Assembly (NCBI RefSeq): GCF_900095305.1 | Contig: NZ_FMDO01000028.1 | Location: 62,001-126,000 of the forward strand | DNA: 64,000 bases | Source of the DNA: Proteiniborus sp. DW1 | GTDB taxonomy: Bacteria; Bacillota; Clostridia; Tissierellales; Proteiniboraceae | Direction: 5' to 3' | Shown here: positions 9,056 to 64,000 of the stretch, one piece after another | How positions within the stretch are numbered: position 1 is the stretch's first letter | Layout: each line of letters opens with the position of its first letter | The notes under the pieces: model-generated | Told to the model about the DNA's origin: nothing | What the model saw: only the letters and a program-made list of their open reading frames with translations | Database searches by the model: none | Made by a program: the position numbers and the translations under genes

Positions 9056-10387
9056 ATGGATGCAGTTAATAAAAAAGCTTCTGTATACGAATTAGATGGT
9101 AGACCAGAACTGAGGCTTGCCATACCTTTAGGAATGCAACATATATTAGCTATGTTTACTGGTAATATAGCTCCTATAATTATTTTGGCAAATGCAATAA
9201 ATTTACCTGAAGCAAATAAAATTATAATGATTCAATCTGCAATGATTGTTGCAGGTTTAGTGACATTAGTTCAACTATATCCACTGGGAAAAGTTGGAGC
9301 TAGGTTACCACTAGTAATGGGAACAAGCTTTGCATTTGTTCCAACAGCATTAAGTGTGGGTCAAGCCTACGGGTTACCAGCTGTACTAGGAGGTTCCTTA
9401 ATCGGAAGTTTAGCTGAAATCACCATGGGATTTTTTATAAAGCCATTGAGAAGATTTTTTCCACCAATTGTGACAGGAACAGTTCTAGTTGCAATAGGAA
9501 TATCACTTCTTCCAACTGGTATCAATTATTTTGCAGGGGGAGCAGGAGCTGCGGACTTTGGTTCGCCAAAAAATCTCTTTTTAGGTTTTGTAGTATTTAT
9601 AACAATATTACTTCTTCAAAGGTTTGGTAAGGGAATATTTAATATAGCGTCAATTCTAGTAGCATTAATTATTGGTTACATCATAGCTATTCCTCTAGGG
9701 AAAATTGATTTTTCTGGTGTGGCTCAGGCTGCATGGTTCAGCATACCAAAGCCACTTCATTTTGGATTGGAGTTTAGATTAGATGCAATACTTAAGTTTG
9801 CAGCTGTTTATCTAGTAGTGGGGCTAGAAACCTTAGGAAACGTATCAGGCATAACATTAAGCGGAGAAAATAGAGAAGCAACAGATAGAGAAATGACAGG
9901 AGCAGTATTAGCTGATTCAGTAGGTAGTGCTTTTGCAGCAATATTTAATGTGTTACCAAACACAGCATACGGACAAAATGCAGGAATAGTAGCAATGACT
10001 GGAGTAATAAATAGATTTGTTGTGGCTACAGGAGCAGTATTCCTAATATTAGCAGGTGTAATGCCTAAAATTGGAGCAATAAGTGCAGCTATGCCAGCAA
10101 GTGTATTAGGTGGAGCAGTTACAATAGTATTCTCCATGATAACAATAAGTGGAATTAAGATGGTTGGCAAGGCAGGATTAGATGGAAGAAATGCTACTAT
10201 ACTAGCAGCTTCTATAGGTCTAGGCTTAGGGTTTAGCCAAGTGCCAGAATCATTAATATATATGCCTGAGATTTTAAAGAATTTCTTTGGAGATCCTGTA
10301 GTGGCAGCAGGAATACTTGCACTAATCTTAAATATAGTTTTTCCTGAAGATACAAAACAATCTAATAAGGATGTAGTCCAAGCATAA
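9056..10387 (+). CDS. NCS2-family purine (xanthine/urate) permease
   Basis: This 443-residue polytopic protein has about 12-14 hydrophobic segments. NCS2 signatures include GMQHILAMFTGNIAPIIIL near the N-terminus, a TGTVLVAIGISLLP segment and the later PNTAYGQNAGIVAMTGV. The glutamine in QNAG is typical of xanthine/urate rather than uracil carriers. It probably imports xanthine, hypoxanthine or urate by proton or sodium symport. A strong aaggagg precedes the ATG by nine bases. The molybdenum hydroxylase subunits follow, so it likely supplies their substrate. Confidence 0.87.
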   Translation: MDAVNKKASVYELDGRPELRLAIPLGMQHILAMFTGNIAPIIILANAINLPEANKIIMIQSAMIVAGLVTLVQLYPLGKVGARLPLVMGTSFAFVPTALSVGQAYGLPAVLGGSLIGSLAEITMGFFIKPLRRFFPPIVTGTVLVAIGISLLPTGINYFAGGAGAADFGSPKNLFLGFVVFITILLLQRFGKGIFNIASILVALIIGYIIAIPLGKIDFSGVAQAAWFSIPKPLHFGLEFRLDAILKFAAVYLVVGLETLGNVSGITLSGENREATDREMTGAVLADSVGSAFAAIFNVLPNTAYGQNAGIVAMTGVINRFVVATGAVFLILAGVMPKIGAISAAMPASVLGGAVTIVFSMITISGIKMVGKAGLDGRNATILAASIGLGLGFSQVPESLIYMPEILKNFFGDPVVAAGILALILNIVFPEDTKQSNKDVVQA

Positions 10388-10458
10388 TAATCTCAATACA
10401 ACCCTAGTCTACTGGCTAGGGATATGTACTTTATTCCATTGATTTTAGAAGGAGTGAA

Positions 10459-11268
10459 ATGAATATGATAACTGTTAAAGAATATATAGCACCACAAAAT
10501 GTAGAAGAAGCATATGAGCTATTTAGCACAAAAAAGAATTCCACTATTCTTGGTGGTGGTGCATTTATAAGAATGGGTTCAAAAAATATAGGGACATTAA
10601 TAGACTTATCAAAAGCTAAAATTGATTATATACATGAAACGGAAAGTGCATTTGAAATAGGAGCTATGGCTACATTTGGAGATATTGAGCATTCAGAAGT
10701 TCTTGCTAAACACTTTGACAATCTTCTCTCAAAGTCTGTAAGAGAAATAGTGGGAGTACAACTTAGAAACATAGTTACTGTAGGAGGAACAGTTTACTCA
10801 AGATACGGATTTTCAGATTTTATAACAGGGCTTTTAGCATTAGATACTAAAGTGAATTTTTACAAGCAAGGAAGTATTTCTTTAGAAGAATATTTAGAAA
10901 AGGGACCTAAAGAAAAAGATATATTAGAAAGCATAACAATCTCAAAAGACGGAAGAAGAGCCTCATATTTTACTATGAGAAACTCAAAGGGAGACTATGC
11001 AATTTTAAATGTAGCAGTGTCTAAACTAGGAGATGATTTTAGAATAGCAATAGGTGCAAGACCTCAAAGAGCCATATTAGCAAAGAAGGCAATGGAGTAC
11101 TTGTCTAACAATGGATATACTGAAGAACACATAAAAAAAGCAGTGGAAATAGCAGCAGATGAAATCACTTTTGGCACAAATACAAGAGGAAGCAAAGAAT
11201 ATAGAAAACATATCTGCAAAGCTTTGTTAAAAAAAGCACTGATGGAGGTTGTTAGCTATGAAGATTAG
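10459..11268 (+). CDS. xdhB: Xanthine dehydrogenase-type FAD-binding subunit
   Basis: This 269-residue protein belongs to the CO-dehydrogenase/xanthine-dehydrogenase medium-subunit family. The FAD-binding motifs are TILGGGAFIRMG (about 32-43) and the region NIVTVGGTVYS (about 107-117). A C-terminal domain follows. It passes electrons from the iron-sulfur subunit to NAD or another acceptor in a membrane-free cytosolic complex. The start has aaggag eight bases upstream. It overlaps the start of the iron-sulfur gene, showing tight coupling. Confidence 0.88.
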   Translation: MNMITVKEYIAPQNVEEAYELFSTKKNSTILGGGAFIRMGSKNIGTLIDLSKAKIDYIHETESAFEIGAMATFGDIEHSEVLAKHFDNLLSKSVREIVGVQLRNIVTVGGTVYSRYGFSDFITGLLALDTKVNFYKQGSISLEEYLEKGPKEKDILESITISKDGRRASYFTMRNSKGDYAILNVAVSKLGDDFRIAIGARPQRAILAKKAMEYLSNNGYTEEHIKKAVEIAADEITFGTNTRGSKEYRKHICKALLKKALMEVVSYED

Positions 11269-11725
11269 TATGAAAATAAACGGAGTGAATAAATCATTTG
11301 AGGTTTCCCCAGATGAATATCTAGTAGATACTCTAAGAAAAAATGGATATTTAGGAGTAAAAAGAGGATGTGATACAGGAGTATGTGGAGTTTGTACTGT
11401 TCATATGAATGGTAAAGCAATATTATCTTGTGTTACATTAGCAGCAAGAGCTGATGGGCAGGAAATAACTACTATTGAAGGAGCAGGTAAGGAAGCAGAA
11501 AGAATAGGAAAATATCTGGTAAATGAAGGCGTAGAGCAATGTGGTTATTGTAGCTCAGGGCTTATAATGAACATCTTATATCTAGAAAAATGTGTAGAAG
11601 ACCCTACAGATGAGGAGATACTCCATTATTTATCAGGTAATCTTTGTAGATGTACAGGGTATACAGGACAACTTAGAGCTATAAGAAAATATTTGGAGGC
11701 GAAGAAAAATGAAAGTAGTAAATAA
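11258..11725 (+). CDS. xdhC: Xanthine dehydrogenase-type [2Fe-2S] subunit
   Basis: This small subunit (about 155 residues) carries two [2Fe-2S] clusters. The plant-ferredoxin-type motif is GCDTGVCGVCTVHMNG with a following Cys in LSCVT. The C-terminal motif is QCGYCSSG plus GNLCRCTGYTG. It relays electrons from the Mo site to FAD. ATG 11258 is chosen because ggagg lies nine bases before it. It overlaps the FAD gene upstream by 11 bases and the large-subunit gene downstream by 17, as expected for a fixed-stoichiometry complex. Confidence 0.92.
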   Translation: MKISMKINGVNKSFEVSPDEYLVDTLRKNGYLGVKRGCDTGVCGVCTVHMNGKAILSCVTLAARADGQEITTIEGAGKEAERIGKYLVNEGVEQCGYCSSGLIMNILYLEKCVEDPTDEEILHYLSGNLCRCTGYTGQLRAIRKYLEAKKNESSK

Positions 11726-14279: not shown

Positions 14280-15935
14280 ATGGCTTATCAAGCATTGTAT
14301 AGGAAGTTTAGACCAAAGACCTTTGACGATGTCATGGGGCAAGAACATATAACTACAACACTAAAAAACCAAATAAAAAATAATAACATAGCCCATGCGT
14401 ATTTATTTTCAGGAACTAGAGGAACTGGCAAGACTTCCACAGCAAAAGTATTTGCGAGAGCTGTCAATTGTACAAATAGTCATGATGGAAACCCTTGTAA
14501 TGAATGTGAAGTATGTAAGGGAATACTTGATGAAACTATAATGGATGTCATAGAAATGGATGCTGCTTCTAATACTAGTGTAGAAGATATTAGAGAGCTT
14601 AGAGAGAAGGCAAAGTATCCTCCAGCTAAATGCAAATATAAAGTATACATTATTGACGAGGTTCATATGATATCTAAAGGTGCTTCTAATGCTCTTTTAA
14701 AAATATTAGAAGAGCCACCAAAGCATTTAATATTCATACTGGCTACAACAGAGCCTCAAAGACTGCCAGCTACAATATTATCTAGATGTCAAAGGTTTGA
14801 CTTTAAAAGGATAACCATAAAAGATATAATAGAAAATATGCAAAACATATTAGACGAAATAGGCATAAATGCGGACCCAAAAGGTCTAAATCTAATAGCT
14901 AGAAATTCAGATGGAGCGATGAGAGATGCCCTTAGCCTTCTAGATCAATGCCTTTCCTTTTCTGAAAAGAAACTGACCTATGATTACATTCTCTCCATAC
15001 TTGGAGTAGTAAGTAATGATATAATATATGAGCTAACAGATTCAATAATAGGAAAAAATGCAGATAAGGCTCTTGAGCTTATAGAGCAAATAGTTCAAAG
15101 TGGGAAAGACATTAATCAGTTTATTAAAGACTTGATACTTCACTTTAGGAACCTAATGGTCATAAAGGTATCTAAAAATGTAGATAGTATGCTTGATGAA
15201 ACAGAGGAAATGATAGAAAATCTTAAAAAACAGGCTGAAAATATAGACACAAGTGGTATAATAAATATACTTAGAATACTATCAGATGCAGAGACTCAGT
15301 GCAAATGGTCGTCTCAGCCTAGGGTAATACTTGAAGTCAGCATCATAAAGATGTTAAACGAAGCTACTAACAATGATTTTGATGATGTGATGACAAGACT
15401 TAGAAGGCTAGAAGAAAAGCTTGAAAATGGCACTTTTATTAAAGAGGCAGATTCTAGAAAGCAATCTGTATCTAATACTTCTACTAAGAGTACAGTTTCT
15501 GAAAAAGTAGTAGAAAGGCAACAATATATTCCAGTTGCTACTAATCAAAACAAATGCGAATTACGAACAGATATAGATATTAAAGAGATTAAAGATGAAT
15601 GGAAAAATATATTAAAGGCTACAAGAGTTGAAAGAATATCTCTTCATGCTCTAATTATGGAAGGAAAACCTTTAAGTATAAAGAATAATATATTGACAAT
15701 AGCTTTTGAAGATGGATTTAGATTTCATAAAGAGGCCATTGAAAAAAGTGAAAATAAGGAGCTTGTTCAGAAAATCATTAATAATTGCTTAAATTCTAAT
15801 ATAGAGATTAAATTTGCAATGGAAGATGACATTGTAGATGTTAATGAAGAAAAGCAGGAAGAGAAACAAGGCGAAGAGCTAATCCAAAAGGTTATTGATA
15901 CTTTTGGAGAAGAACTAGTAAAAATTGAAGAATAA
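14280..15935 (+). CDS. dnaX: DNA polymerase III subunit gamma/tau
   Basis: DnaX is the clamp-loader ATPase of the replicative polymerase. This 551-residue protein has Walker A GTRGTGKTS (about 45-53), a zinc module of four cysteines (CTN...CNECEVC, about 64-79), Walker B IIDEVHM, and the SRC arginine-finger motif LSRCQRF. The collar domain and a Lys/Glu-rich tau-like C-terminus follow. It is followed 18 bases later by ybaB, with recR next, the classic Firmicute order. In Bacillus subtilis this block sits immediately after the SRP RNA gene; here 11 kb of signalling and purine genes lie between. Confidence 0.96.
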   Translation: MAYQALYRKFRPKTFDDVMGQEHITTTLKNQIKNNNIAHAYLFSGTRGTGKTSTAKVFARAVNCTNSHDGNPCNECEVCKGILDETIMDVIEMDAASNTSVEDIRELREKAKYPPAKCKYKVYIIDEVHMISKGASNALLKILEEPPKHLIFILATTEPQRLPATILSRCQRFDFKRITIKDIIENMQNILDEIGINADPKGLNLIARNSDGAMRDALSLLDQCLSFSEKKLTYDYILSILGVVSNDIIYELTDSIIGKNADKALELIEQIVQSGKDINQFIKDLILHFRNLMVIKVSKNVDSMLDETEEMIENLKKQAENIDTSGIINILRILSDAETQCKWSSQPRVILEVSIIKMLNEATNNDFDDVMTRLRRLEEKLENGTFIKEADSRKQSVSNTSTKSTVSEKVVERQQYIPVATNQNKCELRTDIDIKEIKDEWKNILKATRVERISLHALIMEGKPLSIKNNILTIAFEDGFRFHKEAIEKSENKELVQKIINNCLNSNIEIKFAMEDDIVDVNEEKQEEKQGEELIQKVIDTFGEELVKIEE

Positions 15936-15953
15936 TAAGGAGGTTTTTTTATA

Positions 15954-16289
15954 ATGGCAAGAGGTGGATTCCCAGGAATGGGTAACATGGGAAATATGAT
16001 GAAGCAGGTTCAAAAAATGCAGAAGCAAATGGCTGATTTGCAAAATGAGCTAAACGAAAGAGAAGTCGAAGCAAGCGCAGGTGGTGGAGCAGTTACAGTT
16101 AAGGTTAATGGAAAAAAAGAAGTGCTGGAAGTGACTATAGATAAGGATGTAGTAGATCCAGATGATGTTGAAATGCTTCAAGACTTAATCCTTGCTGCAA
16201 CAAATGAAGCTTTAAGAAGTGCAGACGAAATGGTTAGTAGGGAAATGCAAAAGATAACTGGAGGTATGAATATACCAGGGTTATTTTAG
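15954..16289 (+). CDS. Nucleoid-associated protein YbaB/EbfC family
   Basis: This 111-residue protein has a Gly/Met-rich N-terminus ([22 protein letters not shown]), a coiled-coil helix, and the core [29 protein letters not shown] typical of YbaB/EbfC dimeric DNA-binding proteins. It has a strong aaggaggtttttt before the ATG. It is co-located with dnaX and recR, as in most bacteria, suggesting a role in chromosome structure or DNA repair. Confidence 0.95.
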
Positions 16290-16306
16290 CAGTTTCACTA
16301 CAGCTT

Positions 16307-16372
16307 CCTACCTTTAAGTTTTATCAAAGGTAGGATTTAAATAAGGTGGAGAGTATTCTCCACCTAGTTTTT
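16307..16372 (+). terminator. Two successive hairpins between ybaB and recR
   Basis: The first stem is cctaccttt/aaaggtagg (16307-16334). The second is aggtgga/tccacct with loop gagtattc (16344-16365), followed by agtttttc. The second looks like a terminator or attenuator, which would partly uncouple recR from dnaX-ybaB. Confidence 0.65.
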
Positions 16373-16417
16373 CTATGTTTAAATGCTGGAAACAGCTTAA
16401 CTGAAAGGGTGATATAG

Positions 16418-17017
16418 ATGGAGTATTTTGCGCCTCCTTTAGCCAGTCTAATAGAAGAATTTTCAAAACTACCTGGTATAGGCAGAAAAACAGCTCAAAG
16501 GCTTGCGTTTTATGTGCTAAACATGAATGCCGATGATGTAAATGAGCTTGCAAATGCCATAGTAAATGCCAAGAGAAATATTAAGTATTGTAGCATATGT
16601 AGTAATCTTACAGATACAGATCCATGCTTTATTTGTAGCAATACTAACAGAGATCAAACTACAATATGTGTTGTAGAAGACCCAAGAGATGTTATAGCCT
16701 TAGAGAAAACTAAGGAATTTCAAGGATTATATCACGTTTTACATGGAAGCATATCACCAATGGAAGGAATAGGCCCAGAGGATATAAAGATAAAAGAGCT
16801 TCTTCAAAGGATAAGAGAGCTAGATGTAGCAGAGGTAATATTAGCTACAAATCCTACTATAGAAGGAGAGGCCACAGCCATGTATATATCAAAACTCCTA
16901 AAGCCTTTAGGTATAAAAACCACAAGAATAGCTCATGGAATACCAGTAGGCGGAGACTTAGAATATGCAGATGAAGTGACTTTATCAAAGGCATTAGAGG
17001 GAAGAAGGGAGATTTAG
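16418..17017 (+). CDS. recR: Recombination mediator protein RecR
   Basis: RecR works with RecO and RecF to load RecA on gapped DNA. This 199-residue full-length protein has a helix-hairpin-helix ([13 protein letters not shown], about 18-30), a zinc finger with CSIC and CFIC pairs (about 58-72), a Toprim domain beginning [14 protein letters not shown] (about 80-93), and a C-terminal [20 protein letters not shown]. It is preceded by gaaagggtga. A terminator overlaps its 3' end, and the first mini-element begins 15 bases after its stop. Confidence 0.96.
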
Positions 17018-19266: not shown

Positions 19267-19311
19267 TTTAATAAAGACTATGTTATTATATTCAATAATT
19301 GAATATTAATT

Positions 19312-19470
19312 ATTTAGGTTCATAAGATTAATAGGGAAATGGGTTTAAGTCCCATGCAGCCCCCGCTACTGTAATTGATGACGAAATCAACGTATATACC
19401 ACTGGAGAAATCTGGGAAGGTGTTGATTAGGATGATTCATAAGCCAGAAGACCTGCCTATATAAGTTGTA
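19312..19470 (+). promoter_or_regulatory. Cobalamin (adenosylcobalamin) riboswitch
   Basis: Conserved blocks of the class are present in order: the paired element gggtttaagtccc, the core gcagcccccgctactgtaa at 19356-19374, a P7-P9-type region, and the closing agccagaagacctgcc at 19442-19457. A terminator follows at 19541. Bound cobalamin would repress transcription or translation of the cbi cluster beginning with cbiQ at 19614. The exact 5' and 3' limits are approximate. Confidence 0.95.
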
Positions 19471-19540
19471 AGCAACCTTCGGAGGGAAGGAGAGCGATAT
19501 TTTTATGCATATTTAACATATATATTTATGAAAATATTAG

Positions 19541-57902: not shown

Positions 57903-58658
57903 ATGAACAAAGAATCAGAAATCCAGATAAAACCATTTGTAAAAGTGAAAAATATAACAAAGAGATTTGGCAGCATAGAAGCCCTCAAGGCTGTTAATTT
58001 GGAGTGTTATTTAGGCGAGGTATTAGCAGTTGTAGGAGATAATGGTGCGGGTAAGACTACTCTTATAAAAATTCTTTCAGGAGCATCTATACCAGACTCA
58101 GGTGAAATTTGGATTGATGATGAAAGGCAAAAGGAGATGAGTCCTAAGACCTCCTTAGACAAAGGAATATCTACAGTGTATCAGGATTTGTCACTAGTGG
58201 ATACTTGTGATGTATCTTATAATATTTTTCTTGGTAGAGAGCCACTGAAGGGATGTTTTATAGATAAGAAAAAAATGGATGAAGAATCTAAAAAACTAAT
58301 TCAGAATCTAGGAATTCAAATATCAAGTATCAATGAACCTGTTGGAAGGATGAGTGGTGGTCAGAGACAAGGAGTTGCTGTTGCTAGAGCTGTTCATCAA
58401 GGTGGGAAACTATTGATTTTTGATGAACCAACTGCAGCTATGGGGTTAGTGGAATCTACTAAAGTACTTAAATTAATCAAAAAGCTTGCAGAAGATGGAT
58501 ATGGAATAATTATAATTAGTCATAATTTGCAACAGGTATTTCAAATTGCTCATAGGATATGTATAATGCGGCAAGGCACTATTGTAGATATAGTAAAAAC
58601 TGATGAGGTAAAAATTGAGGATGTAATTTCTATGATTACAGGGGCAATTCAAGTTTAA
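57903..58658 (+). CDS. Sugar/nucleoside ABC transporter ATPase, single-domain (FrcA-like)
   Basis: This 251-residue ATPase has VKVKNITKRFGSIEALKAVNLE, Walker A VGDNGAGKTTLIKILSG, signature RMSGGQRQGVAVARAV (Met for Leu), Walker B LLIFDEPTAAMG and His switch IISHNL. Ribose-type (RbsA) ATPases usually have two fused domains of about 500 residues. This is a single domain, as in the fructose/FrcA and some nucleoside systems, and would act as a homodimer. It is followed 13 bases later by the permease gene. Confidence 0.9.
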   Translation: MNKESEIQIKPFVKVKNITKRFGSIEALKAVNLECYLGEVLAVVGDNGAGKTTLIKILSGASIPDSGEIWIDDERQKEMSPKTSLDKGISTVYQDLSLVDTCDVSYNIFLGREPLKGCFIDKKKMDEESKKLIQNLGIQISSINEPVGRMSGGQRQGVAVARAVHQGGKLLIFDEPTAAMGLVESTKVLKLIKKLAEDGYGIIIISHNLQQVFQIAHRICIMRQGTIVDIVKTDEVKIEDVISMITGAIQV

Positions 58659-58671
58659 AAGGAGAAGAATT

Positions 58672-59634
58672 ATGAATGAGAATCTAAAAACAAGATTGGA
58701 ACCATATAGAATGACTATACTATTATTTTCAATTTTATCTCTTATGGTAATAGTATTGAGTATCGTTTCGCCGTTTTTTTTGACATTAAGAAATATAAAA
58801 AATATACTGGACCAAACTTCTATATATATTATCTTGTCTGTTGGGATGACTTTTGTTATATGTTCAGGAGGCATAGATCTTTCAATTGGGTCAGTAATTG
58901 CATTTAGTGCAGTTATATCTGGAATTGCTATGAAGGGGAATGTAAGTGTTGGAGTTTCTGTGTTATTAGGATTAGTTGTAGCTATGCTAATAGGTTGTCT
59001 TAATGGTTTTTTGATTTCCTTCATAAAGATAAATCCATTAATAGTGACTTTAAGTACTATGTCAATATTTAGAGGGATAAATATATTAATCACAAATGGC
59101 AAACCAGTTTTTGGATTTTCGAAAGCTTTTACTTATTGGGGTAGTGGAAGTGTTGGATGGCTAAACTGGCCAATTATCATATCTTTTATAATTACTCTAT
59201 TGGGCATAATTATATTAAGTAAAACACGATTTGGATATTATACTATTGGAATAGGAGCCAATGAAGAGGCTTTAAGAAGAAACGGAATAAATACAAAAAG
59301 ATACAAAATATTAATATATACATTATGTGGTTTTTGTGCAGGAATAGCAGGATTTATTATTAGTGCAAGATTAAATACGGCAGAGCCCTTGGCAGGAACA
59401 GGCTATGAAATGGATGCTATTGCGGCAGTGGTTCTTGGTGGTACAGATATGAATGGAGGAAAGGGAAGTATAAGTGGTACATTTATTGCTTGTCTAATTT
59501 TAGGAGTAATGAAAAATGGGTTAAGGATACTTTCTATTTCATCCAATTATCAACAATTATTAACAGGATTAATTATTTTATTATCAGTTGCATCTACAGA
59601 ATACAAAGTTAGAAGAAAAGCAAAAGCACATTAA
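58672..59634 (+). CDS. RbsC-family ABC transporter permease
   Basis: This 320-residue permease has about nine hydrophobic segments. RbsC/BPD_transp_2 motifs are SVGMTFVICSGGIDLSIGSVIAFS, INPLIVTLSTMSIFRGI, IGIGANEEALRRNGINTKRYK (coupling region) and AAVVLGGTDMNGGKGSISGT. It would import a pentose or riboside. aaaggag precedes the ATG. Confidence 0.92.
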   Translation: MNENLKTRLEPYRMTILLFSILSLMVIVLSIVSPFFLTLRNIKNILDQTSIYIILSVGMTFVICSGGIDLSIGSVIAFSAVISGIAMKGNVSVGVSVLLGLVVAMLIGCLNGFLISFIKINPLIVTLSTMSIFRGINILITNGKPVFGFSKAFTYWGSGSVGWLNWPIIISFIITLLGIIILSKTRFGYYTIGIGANEEALRRNGINTKRYKILIYTLCGFCAGIAGFIISARLNTAEPLAGTGYEMDAIAAVVLGGTDMNGGKGSISGTFIACLILGVMKNGLRILSISSNYQQLLTGLIILLSVASTEYKVRRKAKAH

Positions 59635-59664: not shown

Positions 59665-60618
59665 ATGAGTAAAAGAAAAAGAGTTTTATCTCTTGGAACA
59701 GTAGCAATGGACATTATAATAGAGTCTCAAGAATTGCCGAGAGAAGATGGATTTGGTTTTATTGAATCAGAAAGATTGGTACCTGGTGGAAGTGCTGCTA
59801 ATGTTTCTGTTGCACTTGCTCGTTATGGAATAGAAGCTTATCAGGCTGGGAAAATAGGTGAAGATAATTATGGATATGAATTTCGTAAGACATTAATAGA
59901 AGACGGAGTAAGTGATAAGTTTTTAGTTACAAAACCTAATGGGACAACCTTGCATAATTACATTATAACTGCTCCTGGAGGGAAACATTGTATTTTTGCA
60001 AACTTAGGGGACTCAGTGATAGACTTACAGCCAGAAGAGATTCCAGAAAATATATTGGATGGGATAGATGTATTTTATACAGATTTGTTTTCTTCTCGTG
60101 CAGCTATTTTTATAGCCAAATTAGCTAAGGAAAAGAATATCCCGGTTTTATACAATATGCAATGTGTACCAAGCTTTATGGAAACTTGTGGTGTTGCTAT
60201 TGAAGAAATAGAAGAAATGATAAGCTTATCAACTATATTTTCCAGTGGACGGGAAGGTTATCTTGAAATGACTGGTGAAAAAGATTATGGCAAGTCAATA
60301 GAAATGATTTTCAAAAGGTTTCCTTCATTACAGGGAGCAATCTGCACTGCTGGAAGTGAAGGAGCTTTATGGATAGATAAAGAAGGGTTACTTAATGTAG
60401 AAGCATTTCCAATAGAAGCTGTAGATACAACTGGTGCAGGAGATTGTTTTTTAGCTGGATTTATTTATTCATACTTTTGTGAAAGAATGAATAAAAAGGA
60501 TGCACTTGAGTTTGCTTCTGCGTCAGCTGCTATAAAATGCCTTCAAAAAGGGCCAAGAACAAAGGCGACTTTAGATGATGTAAAAAGGTTTATTAATTCT
60601 GAAAAATACCAGAATTAA
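59665..60618 (+). CDS. PfkB-family carbohydrate/nucleoside kinase
   Basis: This 317-residue kinase has the N-terminal signature LGTVAMDIIIESQEL, PGGSAANVSVALARYGIEAYQAGKIGED, and the ATP/catalytic motif AVDTTGAGDCFLAGF. It phosphorylates a sugar or nucleoside (ribokinase, pseudouridine kinase and related enzymes belong here). The next-but-some gene, which looks like pseudouridine-phosphate glycosidase, favours a nucleoside such as pseudouridine, though ADP-ribosylglycohydrolase neighbours point to other ribosides too. Confidence 0.88.
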   Translation: MSKRKRVLSLGTVAMDIIIESQELPREDGFGFIESERLVPGGSAANVSVALARYGIEAYQAGKIGEDNYGYEFRKTLIEDGVSDKFLVTKPNGTTLHNYIITAPGGKHCIFANLGDSVIDLQPEEIPENILDGIDVFYTDLFSSRAAIFIAKLAKEKNIPVLYNMQCVPSFMETCGVAIEEIEEMISLSTIFSSGREGYLEMTGEKDYGKSIEMIFKRFPSLQGAICTAGSEGALWIDKEGLLNVEAFPIEAVDTTGAGDCFLAGFIYSYFCERMNKKDALEFASASAAIKCLQKGPRTKATLDDVKRFINSEKYQN

Positions 60619-60646: not shown

Positions 60647-61765
60647 ATGTTAAAAAACAAAAGATCTTTAAAATTTAAATCACTAGTATTTATGTTAGTG
60701 GTAGTTATGTCTATGAGTGTAATAGGTTGTTCTAAGGATAGCCAGACTACAGGCACTCCAGAGGTAAAGGAAAACAACGAGGTAGGAGAAAAAGAAAGTA
60801 GTGACACAGTAGAAAAAGAAAATAGTGCCATAATAGAAGCAGAAAAAATGCTATTAGAAGCTTTAGCACCACTTCCAGATAAAAATACAGGTGTTAAAAT
60901 AGCTGCTATAGAAAGTACCTTAGCAAATTCTTTCTGGATTACAATGCAAGAAGGTTATGAAGATGCGGCAAAAGAATATGGTGTTACTATAGATGTACAA
61001 GCAACAGAAACAGAAACAGACATTGAAGGACAGCTAGAGATTATGAGAGTGCTTCTCTCTAAGGATTATGATGCTATTGCAATATCACCACTAACAGAAC
61101 AAAACTTAATACCAGGAATTGTAGAAGCCAATGAAATGGGAGTTAAGGTTGTAGCAGTAGGAAATGGTGTGAATGAAGAAGCACTAGCAGAAGCAAATGG
61201 AAAAATAGAAGCATTTATTACATCAGACTTCAAATATCAAGGAACATTAGGAGCACAATATATAATTGAAAAGACAGGTGGTAAAGGTAAAGTAGCTGTT
61301 ATTGAAGGAATACCAGGAGCTACTCAAAGTGAGGCAAGAAAAAATGGTGCAGTAGAAGCATTTAAGGAAGCGGGTATGGAAGTGCTACCAGTACAAACTG
61401 CTAACTTTGACCGTCAGCAAGCTTATGATGTGACGACTGCAATAATTGAAGCAAATCCAGATATAGTAGGTATCACTTGTGGAAATGATATTATGGCTCT
61501 TGGTGCAGTAGAAGCATTGAAGGCAAAAAATATGAAAGATAAAGTAATGGTTGTAGGAGTTGACTTCATAGAGGAGGCAAAGGTATCCATTGAAAATGGG
61601 GAATTAGATGCTACAGTAGCAATGTCACCTTATTTATTTGGAAAAGCCGGATTAATTACAGCACTTAAAGCAATTAGAGGAGATGAATTTAAAGAGTCTG
61701 TAGTTTGGACACCGATACAACTTGTAAATAAAGATAATGTAACTTCTATGGAAGGCTGGAGATAA
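60647..61765 (+). CDS. Sugar/nucleoside-binding lipoprotein (Peripla_BP_4)
   Basis: This 372-residue lipoprotein has a signal with lipobox SVIGCSK (Cys about 28), then a Glu-rich linker. The class I sugar-binding fold begins GVKIAAIESTLANSFWITMQEGYEDAAKEYG, with YDAIAISPLTEQNLIPGIVEANEMGVKVV, GGKGKVAVIEGIPGATQSEARKNG and VGITCGNDIMALGAVEAL. It delivers the substrate to the RbsC-type permease. gaggagg precedes the ATG. Confidence 0.92.
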   Translation: MLKNKRSLKFKSLVFMLVVVMSMSVIGCSKDSQTTGTPEVKENNEVGEKESSDTVEKENSAIIEAEKMLLEALAPLPDKNTGVKIAAIESTLANSFWITMQEGYEDAAKEYGVTIDVQATETETDIEGQLEIMRVLLSKDYDAIAISPLTEQNLIPGIVEANEMGVKVVAVGNGVNEEALAEANGKIEAFITSDFKYQGTLGAQYIIEKTGGKGKVAVIEGIPGATQSEARKNGAVEAFKEAGMEVLPVQTANFDRQQAYDVTTAIIEANPDIVGITCGNDIMALGAVEALKAKNMKDKVMVVGVDFIEEAKVSIENGELDATVAMSPYLFGKAGLITALKAIRGDEFKESVVWTPIQLVNKDNVTSMEGWR

Positions 61766-61780
61766 CGTAAAAAGATGAAG

Positions 61781-61821
61781 GGTAGGTTTTAGATAAGTGG
61801 CAACACATATTAAAGCCTACC
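61781..61821 (+). terminator. Intercistronic hairpin after the binding-protein gene
   Basis: ggtaggtttta pairs along its whole length with taaagcctacc (one G-T), followed by tttattatta. It may partly terminate or stabilise the message so that the binding protein is made in excess, as in other ABC operons. Confidence 0.6.
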
Positions 61822-61847
61822 TTTATTATTAGAATGGAGGTATAGAT

Positions 61848-62885
61848 ATGTATAATAAAATATTAGGAGGGCTTATTGGTGCTGCAGCTGGAGATGCTAT
61901 GGGAGCAGCGACAGAAGCACGATCAATTGAGCAAATTATGGAATATTTTGGGCATGAGGTTACTGATTTTGAAGTACCACCTATGGATACTTTTGGTGCA
62001 GGCAACAAAGCTGGACAAGTAACAGATGATTTTAGCTCAGCGTATTTTGTTGCCAGAAAAATAGTAGAAGCTGGAGGAAAGGTAACAGAGCAAGCAATTA
62101 AAGATGCTTTGATAGAGTGGTCTAAGCATTCTGTGTTTTTTGATCGTTTTGCAGGTCCGACTACCCGTTTGGCTATTAGAGAATTTGAAGGAAAACTGGA
62201 CGAAAATTCTGGGAAGACAGCGTTAGCTACTCGTCAGGCTACTAATGGCTCTGCAATGCGTATTTCCCCAATAGGACTATTAAATCCTGGAAACTTAGAT
62301 GCAGCTATTTCTGATGCAGCAAAGGTAACAATGCTAACCCATGACAATTACCTTTCGATTTCTGGTGCTTGTGCTGTAGCTGCAGCTGTAAGTAGAGCAA
62401 TGATGGATGATGCGGATGTATATAATGTAATTCGTTCAGGGCTATATGGAGCTATAGAAGGGGAAAAGCTAGGAAGAAAAATAGGACGTGATGCAGCAGG
62501 ACCATCCGTAGTAAAGCGTATGGAGTTAGCAATTGAGATAGGGTTTGGAAAAGGAACTCCAAGAGAAAAAATGGTAGAAATTGCCGAAAGGATTGGCACA
62601 GGACTTCATATTTCTGAGGCCGTACCATCAGCATTTGGAATATTCGCAGCAAATAACGGAGATGCCATGGGAACAATTATTGGATGTGTAAATGCAGGAT
62701 ATGATACTGACACTTTAGCAACTATAGCAGGTGGGATTGCAGGAGCACTATGTGGCGCAGATTCTTTTCCAGAGCATTTTCTTCCCACATTAGAGGAAGC
62801 AAATGGTCTGGATATTCAAGGATTGGCCAAAGGTATTGAGCAAATTTGTTATAAAAAGATGGCAAATATGTTTGGAGGGAAATAA
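61848..62885 (+). CDS. ADP-ribosylglycohydrolase-family protein, canonical copy
   Basis: This 345-residue DraG/ARH-fold protein has the N-terminal GGLIGAAAGDAMGAATEARS, the dimetal motif GQVTDDFSSAY (TDD at 62022-62030) and a C-terminal metal motif AGYDTDTLATIAGGIAGALCG. The known family removes ADP-ribose from proteins or hydrolyses related N-glycosides with Mg2+ or Mn2+. In this operon a substrate such as ADP-ribose or another N-riboside is plausible. It starts after aatggagg and ends three bases before its paralogue. Confidence 0.85.
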   Translation: MYNKILGGLIGAAAGDAMGAATEARSIEQIMEYFGHEVTDFEVPPMDTFGAGNKAGQVTDDFSSAYFVARKIVEAGGKVTEQAIKDALIEWSKHSVFFDRFAGPTTRLAIREFEGKLDENSGKTALATRQATNGSAMRISPIGLLNPGNLDAAISDAAKVTMLTHDNYLSISGACAVAAAVSRAMMDDADVYNVIRSGLYGAIEGEKLGRKIGRDAAGPSVVKRMELAIEIGFGKGTPREKMVEIAERIGTGLHISEAVPSAFGIFAANNGDAMGTIIGCVNAGYDTDTLATIAGGIAGALCGADSFPEHFLPTLEEANGLDIQGLAKGIEQICYKKMANMFGGK

Positions 62886-62887
62886 AG

Positions 62888-63949
62888 ATGTATAACAAAA
62901 TTTTAGGAGCATTAGTAGGTGCTGCTGTAGGAGATGCTATGGGTGCTGCTACAGAGCTTAGGTCTTTTAATCAGATACGTGAAAGTTTTGGTGGGAAAGT
63001 AGTAGATTTTCATACTCCACCAAATGATACACCAGCAAAAGGTCGTGTAGCAGGTCAGGTAACAGATGCCTTTAGTATTCCGTATATATTAATTAAATAT
63101 ATACTAAAAACTAATGGGAGTTTTACAACAGAATCTGCTCAAAAAGCTCTAATTGAATGGAGCACATATGAATGGTTTGAGCCTTTTGCAGGAATGACTA
63201 CTCGAAAAGTAATTAATCGTATAACTGCAAGTAAAGAAAATAATACTTATTGGGCTTATGCAGGACATTTAGGGAATAAGCTTTTTAAAGGCCATTATTA
63301 TGCCATGTCATCTAATGGGGCAGCCTGTAAAGCTTTTCCAATGGGTTTATTTAATCCAGGAGATATTGATAAGGCTATATACGAAACTATAGCAGTAACT
63401 ATGTCATCTCATGATGATAAATATAGCATCTCAGGAGCCTGCGCTGTAGCAGCTGCAGTGAGTAAAGCTATGGAAGAAAAAGTTACAGTTTATGATATCG
63501 TTCAAGCAGGCTTTTATGGAGCAAAAATAGGAGAGGAAAGAGGTAACGAAATTGCACTTAATTATCCAGGGCCTTCTGTACAAAAGAGAATGGATATGGC
63601 TGTAAATATAGCAATGAAAGCAGGAGAACCTGATAAGATAATGGAGAACTTAGCAGAAACAATTGGAAGTGGACCAGCAATTGCTGAAACCGTACCAGTT
63701 GCTTTTGGACTATTTATAGCAAATAATGGTGAAACCATGCCATCTATCTATGGTGGAGTTAATATTGGGGATGAAACAAGTGCAATTGCTACTATTACAG
63801 GGGCATTGTCAGGAGCATGTAATGGAATAGATTCAATTGCTAATGGATACCAGAAGATTATTGAAGAAAAAAATGAAATGGATTTATCAAAGCTATCTGA
63901 GGAAATATGCAAGTATATTGAAAAAGATTTAATGGATAGAAGGAAGTGA
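62888..63949 (+). CDS. ADP-ribosylglycohydrolase-family protein, divergent metal site
   Basis: This 353-residue tandem paralogue of the preceding gene has matching ends (GALVGAAVGDAMGAATELRS; GPSVQKRMDMAV; GSGPAIAETVPVAFGLFIANNG). In it the first metal motif reads GQVTDAFSIPY (second Asp replaced by Ala, 63068). The C-terminal motif reads NIGDETSAIATITGALSG (DTDT replaced by DETS, 63770-63781). Two of the usual metal ligands are therefore changed. It may be a non-catalytic partner forming a heterodimer with the first copy, or an enzyme with altered chemistry. Confidence 0.8.
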   Translation: MYNKILGALVGAAVGDAMGAATELRSFNQIRESFGGKVVDFHTPPNDTPAKGRVAGQVTDAFSIPYILIKYILKTNGSFTTESAQKALIEWSTYEWFEPFAGMTTRKVINRITASKENNTYWAYAGHLGNKLFKGHYYAMSSNGAACKAFPMGLFNPGDIDKAIYETIAVTMSSHDDKYSISGACAVAAAVSKAMEEKVTVYDIVQAGFYGAKIGEERGNEIALNYPGPSVQKRMDMAVNIAMKAGEPDKIMENLAETIGSGPAIAETVPVAFGLFIANNGETMPSIYGGVNIGDETSAIATITGALSGACNGIDSIANGYQKIIEEKNEMDLSKLSEEICKYIEKDLMDRRK

Positions 63950-64000
63950 TAAATATAGAAACTAAATTTCTAGTAGAAACAGCTTTATTAACCCATGGTT
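63946..64000 (+). CDS. Start of a probable pseudouridine-5'-phosphate glycosidase (PsuG/indigoidine synthase A type), cut by the window end
   Basis: From GTG 63946, overlapping the preceding stop, the frame reads INIETKFLVETALLTHG. It resembles the PsuG start, where a segment like ALESTIISHG carries the substrate-binding residues. Only 18 residues are visible, so the call is tentative. If right, the operon pairs importer, PfkB kinase and a C-nucleoside-phosphate glycosidase. Confidence 0.45.
   Translation, partial: MINIETKFLVETALLTHG

Follow-up and report, generated by a model that had tools for sequence, protein, structure and literature searches.

Related systems

A set of transporter, ADP-ribosylglycohydrolase (ARH) and PfkB kinase genes is already known from the yegTUV operon of E. 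coli, which codes for the nucleoside-type transporter YegT, the ARH-family protein YegU and the PfkB-family protein YegV, the functions of which are unproven (PMC10819704). The operon described here, which lies at the end of a 64,000-nucleotide stretch of the Proteiniborus sp. DW1 genome (referred to as the window), resembles yegTUV in uniting a transporter, an ARH-family protein and a sugar kinase. However, the three-gene operon of E. coli contains one ARH gene, relies on a transporter of the MFS type where the window operon has an ABC importer, and lacks PsuG-like or C1 genes. Altered ARHs, in turn, are known singly in vertebrates; in human ARH2/ADPRHL1, the metal-site residues are altered and activity was not detected (PMC9738213). 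Like the second ARH of the window, it is a paralogue with a changed metal site that occurs beside active relatives, but it is a heart and muscle protein and has no operon pairing with an active ARH. The alterations of the human and the bacterial protein are most likely independent events. Structure comparison additionally retrieved, by the titles of the structures, the Ycf2/Orf2971-FtsHi motor and trypanosome mitoribosome assembly as cases in which an ARH fold is a subunit of a large complex; these, however, belong to eukaryotic organelles and to an unrelated context. To our knowledge, ARHs with an altered metal site have come mostly from eukaryotes, each as a puzzling single case. A search of the open-licence literature did not reveal a description of a conserved pair of a canonical and an altered ARH.

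Organization of the operon

The genes of the operon are all located on the + strand and occupy the final 6 kb of the window:

57903..58658, + strand, single-domain ATPase of an ABC importer, 251 aa (PF00005, 107.6 bits)
58672..59634, + strand, RbsC/AraH-type ABC permease (PF02653, 160.7 bits)
59665..60618, + strand, PfkB-family kinase (PF00294, 144.5 bits)
60647..61765, + strand, AlsB/RbsB-like substrate-binding protein of the importer (PF13407, 178.7 bits)
61774..61833 (approximate limits), + strand, stable RNA hairpin in the gap between the binding-protein gene and ARH1, from folding
61848..62885, + strand, ARH1, canonical ADP-ribosylglycohydrolase-family protein, 345 aa (PF03747, 188.4 bits; motifs TDD and DTDT)
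62888..63949, + strand, ARH2, metal-ligand-depleted paralogue, 353 aa (PF03747, 145.9 bits; motifs TDA and ETSA)
63946..64000, + strand, 5' end of a PsuG-like gene (PF04227), continuing to about 64728 beyond the window (L003:6947-7729)

An RbsC-type importer and a PfkB kinase had been named in the initial annotation, and the Pfam matches PF02653 and PF00294 agree with this. The top NCBIfam models were sugar importers for the ATPase (all scores far under the cut-off) and, likewise under the cut-off, a ribose permease for the permease, ribose-1-phosphate kinase and ribokinase for the PfkB protein, and the D-allose binding protein for the substrate-binding protein, the N-terminus of which reads like a lipoprotein signal. 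ARH1 and ARH2 are spaced by 2 bp and are the sole PF03747 genes in the genome. Folding of the region 61760-61850 upstream of ARH1 gave -22.4 kcal/mol, with z = -4.94 versus shuffled sequences; hairpins located 3' of binding-protein genes commonly give rise to unequal expression. A search for a riboswitch in the operon leader did not return any, and none was found near the other paired operons either, except for a TPP element about 5 kb off in locus L059. Promoter and terminator scans produced signals at chance level. A cobalamin riboswitch (RF00174, 105 bits) is situated elsewhere in the window, at 19299-19474.

The PsuG-like gene has its GTG start at 63946, so that it and ARH2 share 4 bp at the ARH2 stop. 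The contig sequence past the window confirms the earlier suspicion of a PsuG start at this position, since the complete gene codes for a protein of 260 aa that matches PF04227 with 68 bits. Its residue K137 is invariant and pairs with K166 of E. coli PsuG (counted on the HMMER alignment), the Schiff-base lysine of that enzyme. The equivalents of E31 and D149 are retained (with E31 replaced by Asp in two proteins), while K93 is replaced by Arg. An NCBIfam scan of the PsuG-like proteins of the window and of locus L074 matched no model. The PF04227 match and the lysine mark a PsuG-type protein, which need not be a pseudouridine-specific PsuG. Short PF04227 proteins of about 250-270 aa that retain the PsuG lysine may be a PsuG subfamily of their own; the five that were aligned are 33-40% identical to the protein of the window.

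Metal-ligand positions of ARH1 and ARH2

The motifs TDD and DTDT are present in ARH1 of the window and of every operon orthologue, whereas ARH2 of the window shows TDA and ETSA. The change in the second copy had been pointed out before, the "DETS" reported then being the ETSA stretch read one residue earlier. All 13 ARH2 orthologues contain TD[AV] (TES in one) and ET[SCA]A, and nearly all other ARHs examined possess both motifs intact, the two outliers having variants of another kind; the motif change is therefore more than chance.

In human ARH3, MgA is liganded by Thr76, Asp77, Asp78 and Asp316, and MgB by Asp314, Asp316 and Thr317; catalysis depends critically on the acidic ligands Asp77, Asp78, Asp314 and Asp316, and the D314E replacement leads to loss of MgB (PMC8141533). 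When aligned to ARH3, ARH2 of the window retains the equivalents of Thr76 and Asp77, but Asp78 is replaced by Ala, Asp314 by Glu, Asp316 by Ser, and Thr317 by Ala, which leaves MgA with two of its four ligands and MgB without any intact one. Among the ARH2 orthologues, the position of the bridging Asp316 is occupied by Ser, Cys or Ala, and that of Asp78 by Ala, Val or Ser; the equivalent of human Glu41 is present in most of them. The complete T-D-D plus D-x-D-T/S ligand set thus occurs in ARH1 and not in ARH2. By this set, ARH1 is predicted to belong to the catalytic dimetal hydrolase type (ARH1/ARH3/DraG), while ARH2, as judged from its residues, cannot be expected to build the standard two-magnesium centre. 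The question whether ARH2 regains ligands from elsewhere is answered in part, insofar as its only new invariant acids are E296, in place of Asp, and D177, in place of Asn. ARH2 may compensate with a single metal.

Fold and active-site cleft of ARH2

Both proteins are members of PF03747, with 188 bits for ARH1 and 146 bits for ARH2 (cut-off, 26), and AlphaFold models were obtained with pLDDT values of 94.7 and 92.2, respectively. Comparison of the ARH2 model with known structures yielded a Z score of 36.7 to MJ1187, and scores of about 33-35 to ARH3 and DraG. The full-length PF03747 match and the similarity to MJ1187 uphold the view that the second copy has kept the rest of the fold.

The mean entropy of the active-site loops is 0.52 bits in ARH2, versus 1.21 bits elsewhere in the protein; the corresponding values for ARH1 are 0.43 and 0.93 bits. 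Positions which are fixed in each copy to different residues make up 10 of 27 conserved loop positions, as compared to 5 of 52 outside the loops (Fisher p = 0.006, a value that is indicative, as the loops were picked by the analyst from the ARH motifs). Because the active-site loops are still strongly conserved, the active site of ARH2 was rebuilt rather than lost. The sole segment of the ARH2 model with a pLDDT below 50, residues 127-138, contains the invariant residues K131-L132-F133, which are specific to ARH2 and directly precede active-site loop III; in the model, they are a candidate for a lid or docking element.

Distribution of the ARH pair

By searching whole genomes and scanning GTDB contigs, 13 complete ARH1-ARH2 pairs were identified in about nine family-level groups of Bacillota. 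They comprise the pair of the window genome; three pairs from the same order, each in a genome of a different other family, one of these being Tissierella praeacuta DSM 18095; six pairs from three additional families of the phylum, represented by one, three and two genomes; and those of public records under the names Thermoanaerobacterales bacterium, uncultured Dorea sp. and Mobilibacterium timonense. A 14th locus stops right after ARH1, at a contig end. The distribution is patchy; the pair is absent from two other species of the window genus, and about 1% of the sampled genomes of the phylum were positive. ARH1 always precedes ARH2 in the same direction, and in the seven cases measured the two genes are spaced by -8 to +24 bp; neither gene ever occurs alone, save at a contig end. 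A maximum-likelihood tree of 54 proteins unites the ARH2 sequences in one clade (support, 100/100) and their ARH1 partners in another (98/89). The dN/dS ratios between close orthologues range from 0.11 to 0.16 for ARH2, and from 0.10 to 0.14 for ARH1, which indicates purifying selection of similar strength on both copies. ARH2 diverged once, long ago. A search of genomes for a conserved pairing of a canonical and a divergent copy had been suggested, with confinement to this genome as a counterargument; with 13 genomes, a single ARH2 clade and ARH1 always adjoining, the pairing proved to be old and strictly co-inherited, and the counterargument did not hold.

Three other tandem ARH pairs of Bacillota (L079:225-2371, L081:8174-11008 and L083:9986-12084) were rejected as members, since both copies carry the acidic ligands; in the tree, they fall outside the ARH1 and ARH2 clades of the operon.

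Neighbouring genes in other genomes

Importer, PfkB kinase, ARH1 and ARH2 form a constant core at every locus with a sufficiently long contig; the kinase was counted as present in L036 and L073, where a longer frame on the opposite strand overlies the kinase frame. A PsuG-like gene was found at 6 of the 14 paired loci, an MtaA/CmuA-type methyltransferase at five, a corrinoid protein at two, and a double-cubane-type reductase together with its ATPase at five. The double-cubane reductase tested, that of L062, scored 486 bits on NF040772 (cut-off, 350). At 87 control loci that contain other ARHs, the same query genes were not found. As three of the 14 paired loci stem from one genus and three from one family, they do not count as independent, and many of the 87 controls are Actinobacteria. 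The reductase of T. praeacuta is located about 4.5 kb from the pair, and in genome G210 it is encoded on the strand opposite to the pair. Taking this into account, the association holds for a minimum of two or three lineages, while its p-values are too favourable. The MtaA-like methyltransferase and the corrinoid protein are absent from the window operon and from most paired loci. NifH-like genes of Mobilibacterium are situated on contigs numbered differently from that of the paired locus, and in the window genome the genes of the HGD-D and UroD types are on contigs other than that of the operon; neither set is regarded as linked to the pair. As a test for a selenium trait, selD does not discriminate, since it exceeded the cut-off in 17 of 17 controls as well as in 13 of the 14 genomes with a paired locus.

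Several individual loci may be mentioned. In L062, the double-cubane reductase and its activating ATPase are encoded at 10192-11331 (-) and 15649-16437 (-), in or beside a riboside-type importer operon, and the two genes also lie by an operon of the paired type in L063, L164 and L034; a double-cubane reductase may have its physiological place in such an importer operon. In Mobilibacterium timonense (L074:885-5076), two subunits resembling nitrogenase component 1 are encoded directly upstream of a second PfkB gene, a PsuG-like gene and the operon with the ARH pair, and luxS follows after ARH2 at 11106-11627. A DUF169 (PF02596) gene, L036:4889-5617, directly precedes the paired-ARH operon of that locus.

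MtaA-like methyltransferase, corrinoid, dicubane and nitrogenase-like Mar genes, some of which are shared by some of the paired-ARH operons, co-occur in type 1 mlp clusters, for which a role in methyl-selenium or methyl-sulfur metabolism has been proposed; the main text of that report, however, does not mention an ADP-ribosyl hydrolase, PfkB or ABC transporter (PMC10418091). Since the neighbouring gene types co-occur in these clusters, they suggest methyl-sulfur or methyl-selenium chemistry, possibly of a riboside, for the paired operons, which we regard as a lead and not as a result.

Proposed function

Our tentative proposal is that the operon serves the uptake, phosphorylation and glycosidic cleavage of a ribose compound, with ARH1 as hydrolase and ARH2 as its obligate partner. 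The importer would bring in the ribose-containing compound, the PfkB kinase would phosphorylate it before or after the ARH1 step, and ARH1 would cut the glycosidic bond by means of its two-metal site. Most likely, ARH2 would hold or present the ribosyl substrate or product, or gate the ARH1 site, and the PsuG-like protein would act on a C- or N-glycosidic bond of a related kind or of a later step. The ARH1-ARH2 heteromer, the substrate, and the order of the kinase and hydrolase steps are what we infer. Against the heteromer stands that the ARH enzymes we know of as a rule work without a partner of this kind. The substrate most likely belongs to the modified ribosides, N-, C-, S- or Se-linked, and because characterised ARHs cut alpha-linked ribosides (PMC9738213), it is likely to be alpha-linked or anomerisable. 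ADP-ribose and pseudouridine, which the initial annotation had considered, received no specific support; the neighbours elsewhere point to methyl-sulfur or methyl-selenium chemistry instead. A more far-reaching and rather speculative version is that a two-subunit ARH, composed of a dimetal and a rebuilt, metal-poor protein, opens a methyl-sulfur or methyl-selenium riboside (for instance one derived from modified tRNA nucleosides, or from 5'-methylthio or 5'-methylseleno nucleosides), the methyl and sulfur or selenium groups of which would be passed on to corrinoid methyltransferases and to reductases of the double-cubane or nitrogenase-like type. Against our proposal in general, PsuG-like or C1 genes are present in a subset of the operons only.

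The role of ARH2 as an obligate partner is modestly and indirectly supported by the fixed order of the pairs, the clade support, purifying selection and the constraint on the loops, but a conserved cleft would equally be expected of an independent enzyme. ARH2 could indeed catalyze another step, or act on another linkage, of the same pathway by a new chemistry with one metal or none, without forming a stable complex with ARH1. We consider this a possible though less probable explanation, and rank the partner role modestly above it. The cleft of ARH2 is nearly as constrained as that of ARH1, and is rebuilt rather than eroded; the conserved Thr59 and Asp60 (Glu in one protein), together with the new Glu296, could hold one metal, and an invariant Asp177 has taken the place of Asn. 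The strict one-to-one adjacency to ARH1 in every genome seen, and the elimination of MgB by D314E in ARH3 (PMC8141533), speak against independence. ARH2 might also recruit ligands at other positions to form a two-metal centre again, and so be an ordinary second hydrolase with a different specificity. This is improbable: Glu296 and Asp177 are acids able to serve as ligands, but the equivalent of Asp316 is Ser, Cys or Ala, Thr317 is replaced by Ala and Asp78 by Ala, Val or Ser, and it is precisely a Glu at the Asp314 position with which ARH3 loses MgB (PMC8141533).

That the pair is a DraG-like regulator, which removes ADP-ribose from the double-cubane or nitrogenase-like reductases encoded nearby in some genomes, appears very unlikely. 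DraG is itself a member of the ARH family, and several loci do carry a linked reductase of this kind, but the constant partners are the importer and the kinase, the window operon contains no reductase, and ARH1 and ARH2 score 71 and 33 bits, respectively, on TIGR02662, the equivalog cut-off of which is 337. Finally, the loss of catalytic ligands might be taken to indicate a decaying, functionless duplicate; this is ruled out for practical purposes by the intact frame in 13 genomes, dN/dS ratios of 0.11-0.16, and a motif that is fixed over deep divergence. As for an independently acting ARH2, we know of no precedent of an active ARH with its replacements.

The conserved combination of a canonical and an altered ARH points to an undescribed two-protein enzyme unit. 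As the bacterial gene set locks an active and an altered copy together across several families of anaerobes, it makes the role of an altered ARH testable by co-expression. We know of no natural substrate of the double-cubane reductases. If the neighbours found in other genomes share the pathway, the paired operons would provide a physiological setting for some of these reductases, and a catabolic rather than a protein-modifying role for bacterial ARHs encoded beside PfkB kinases.
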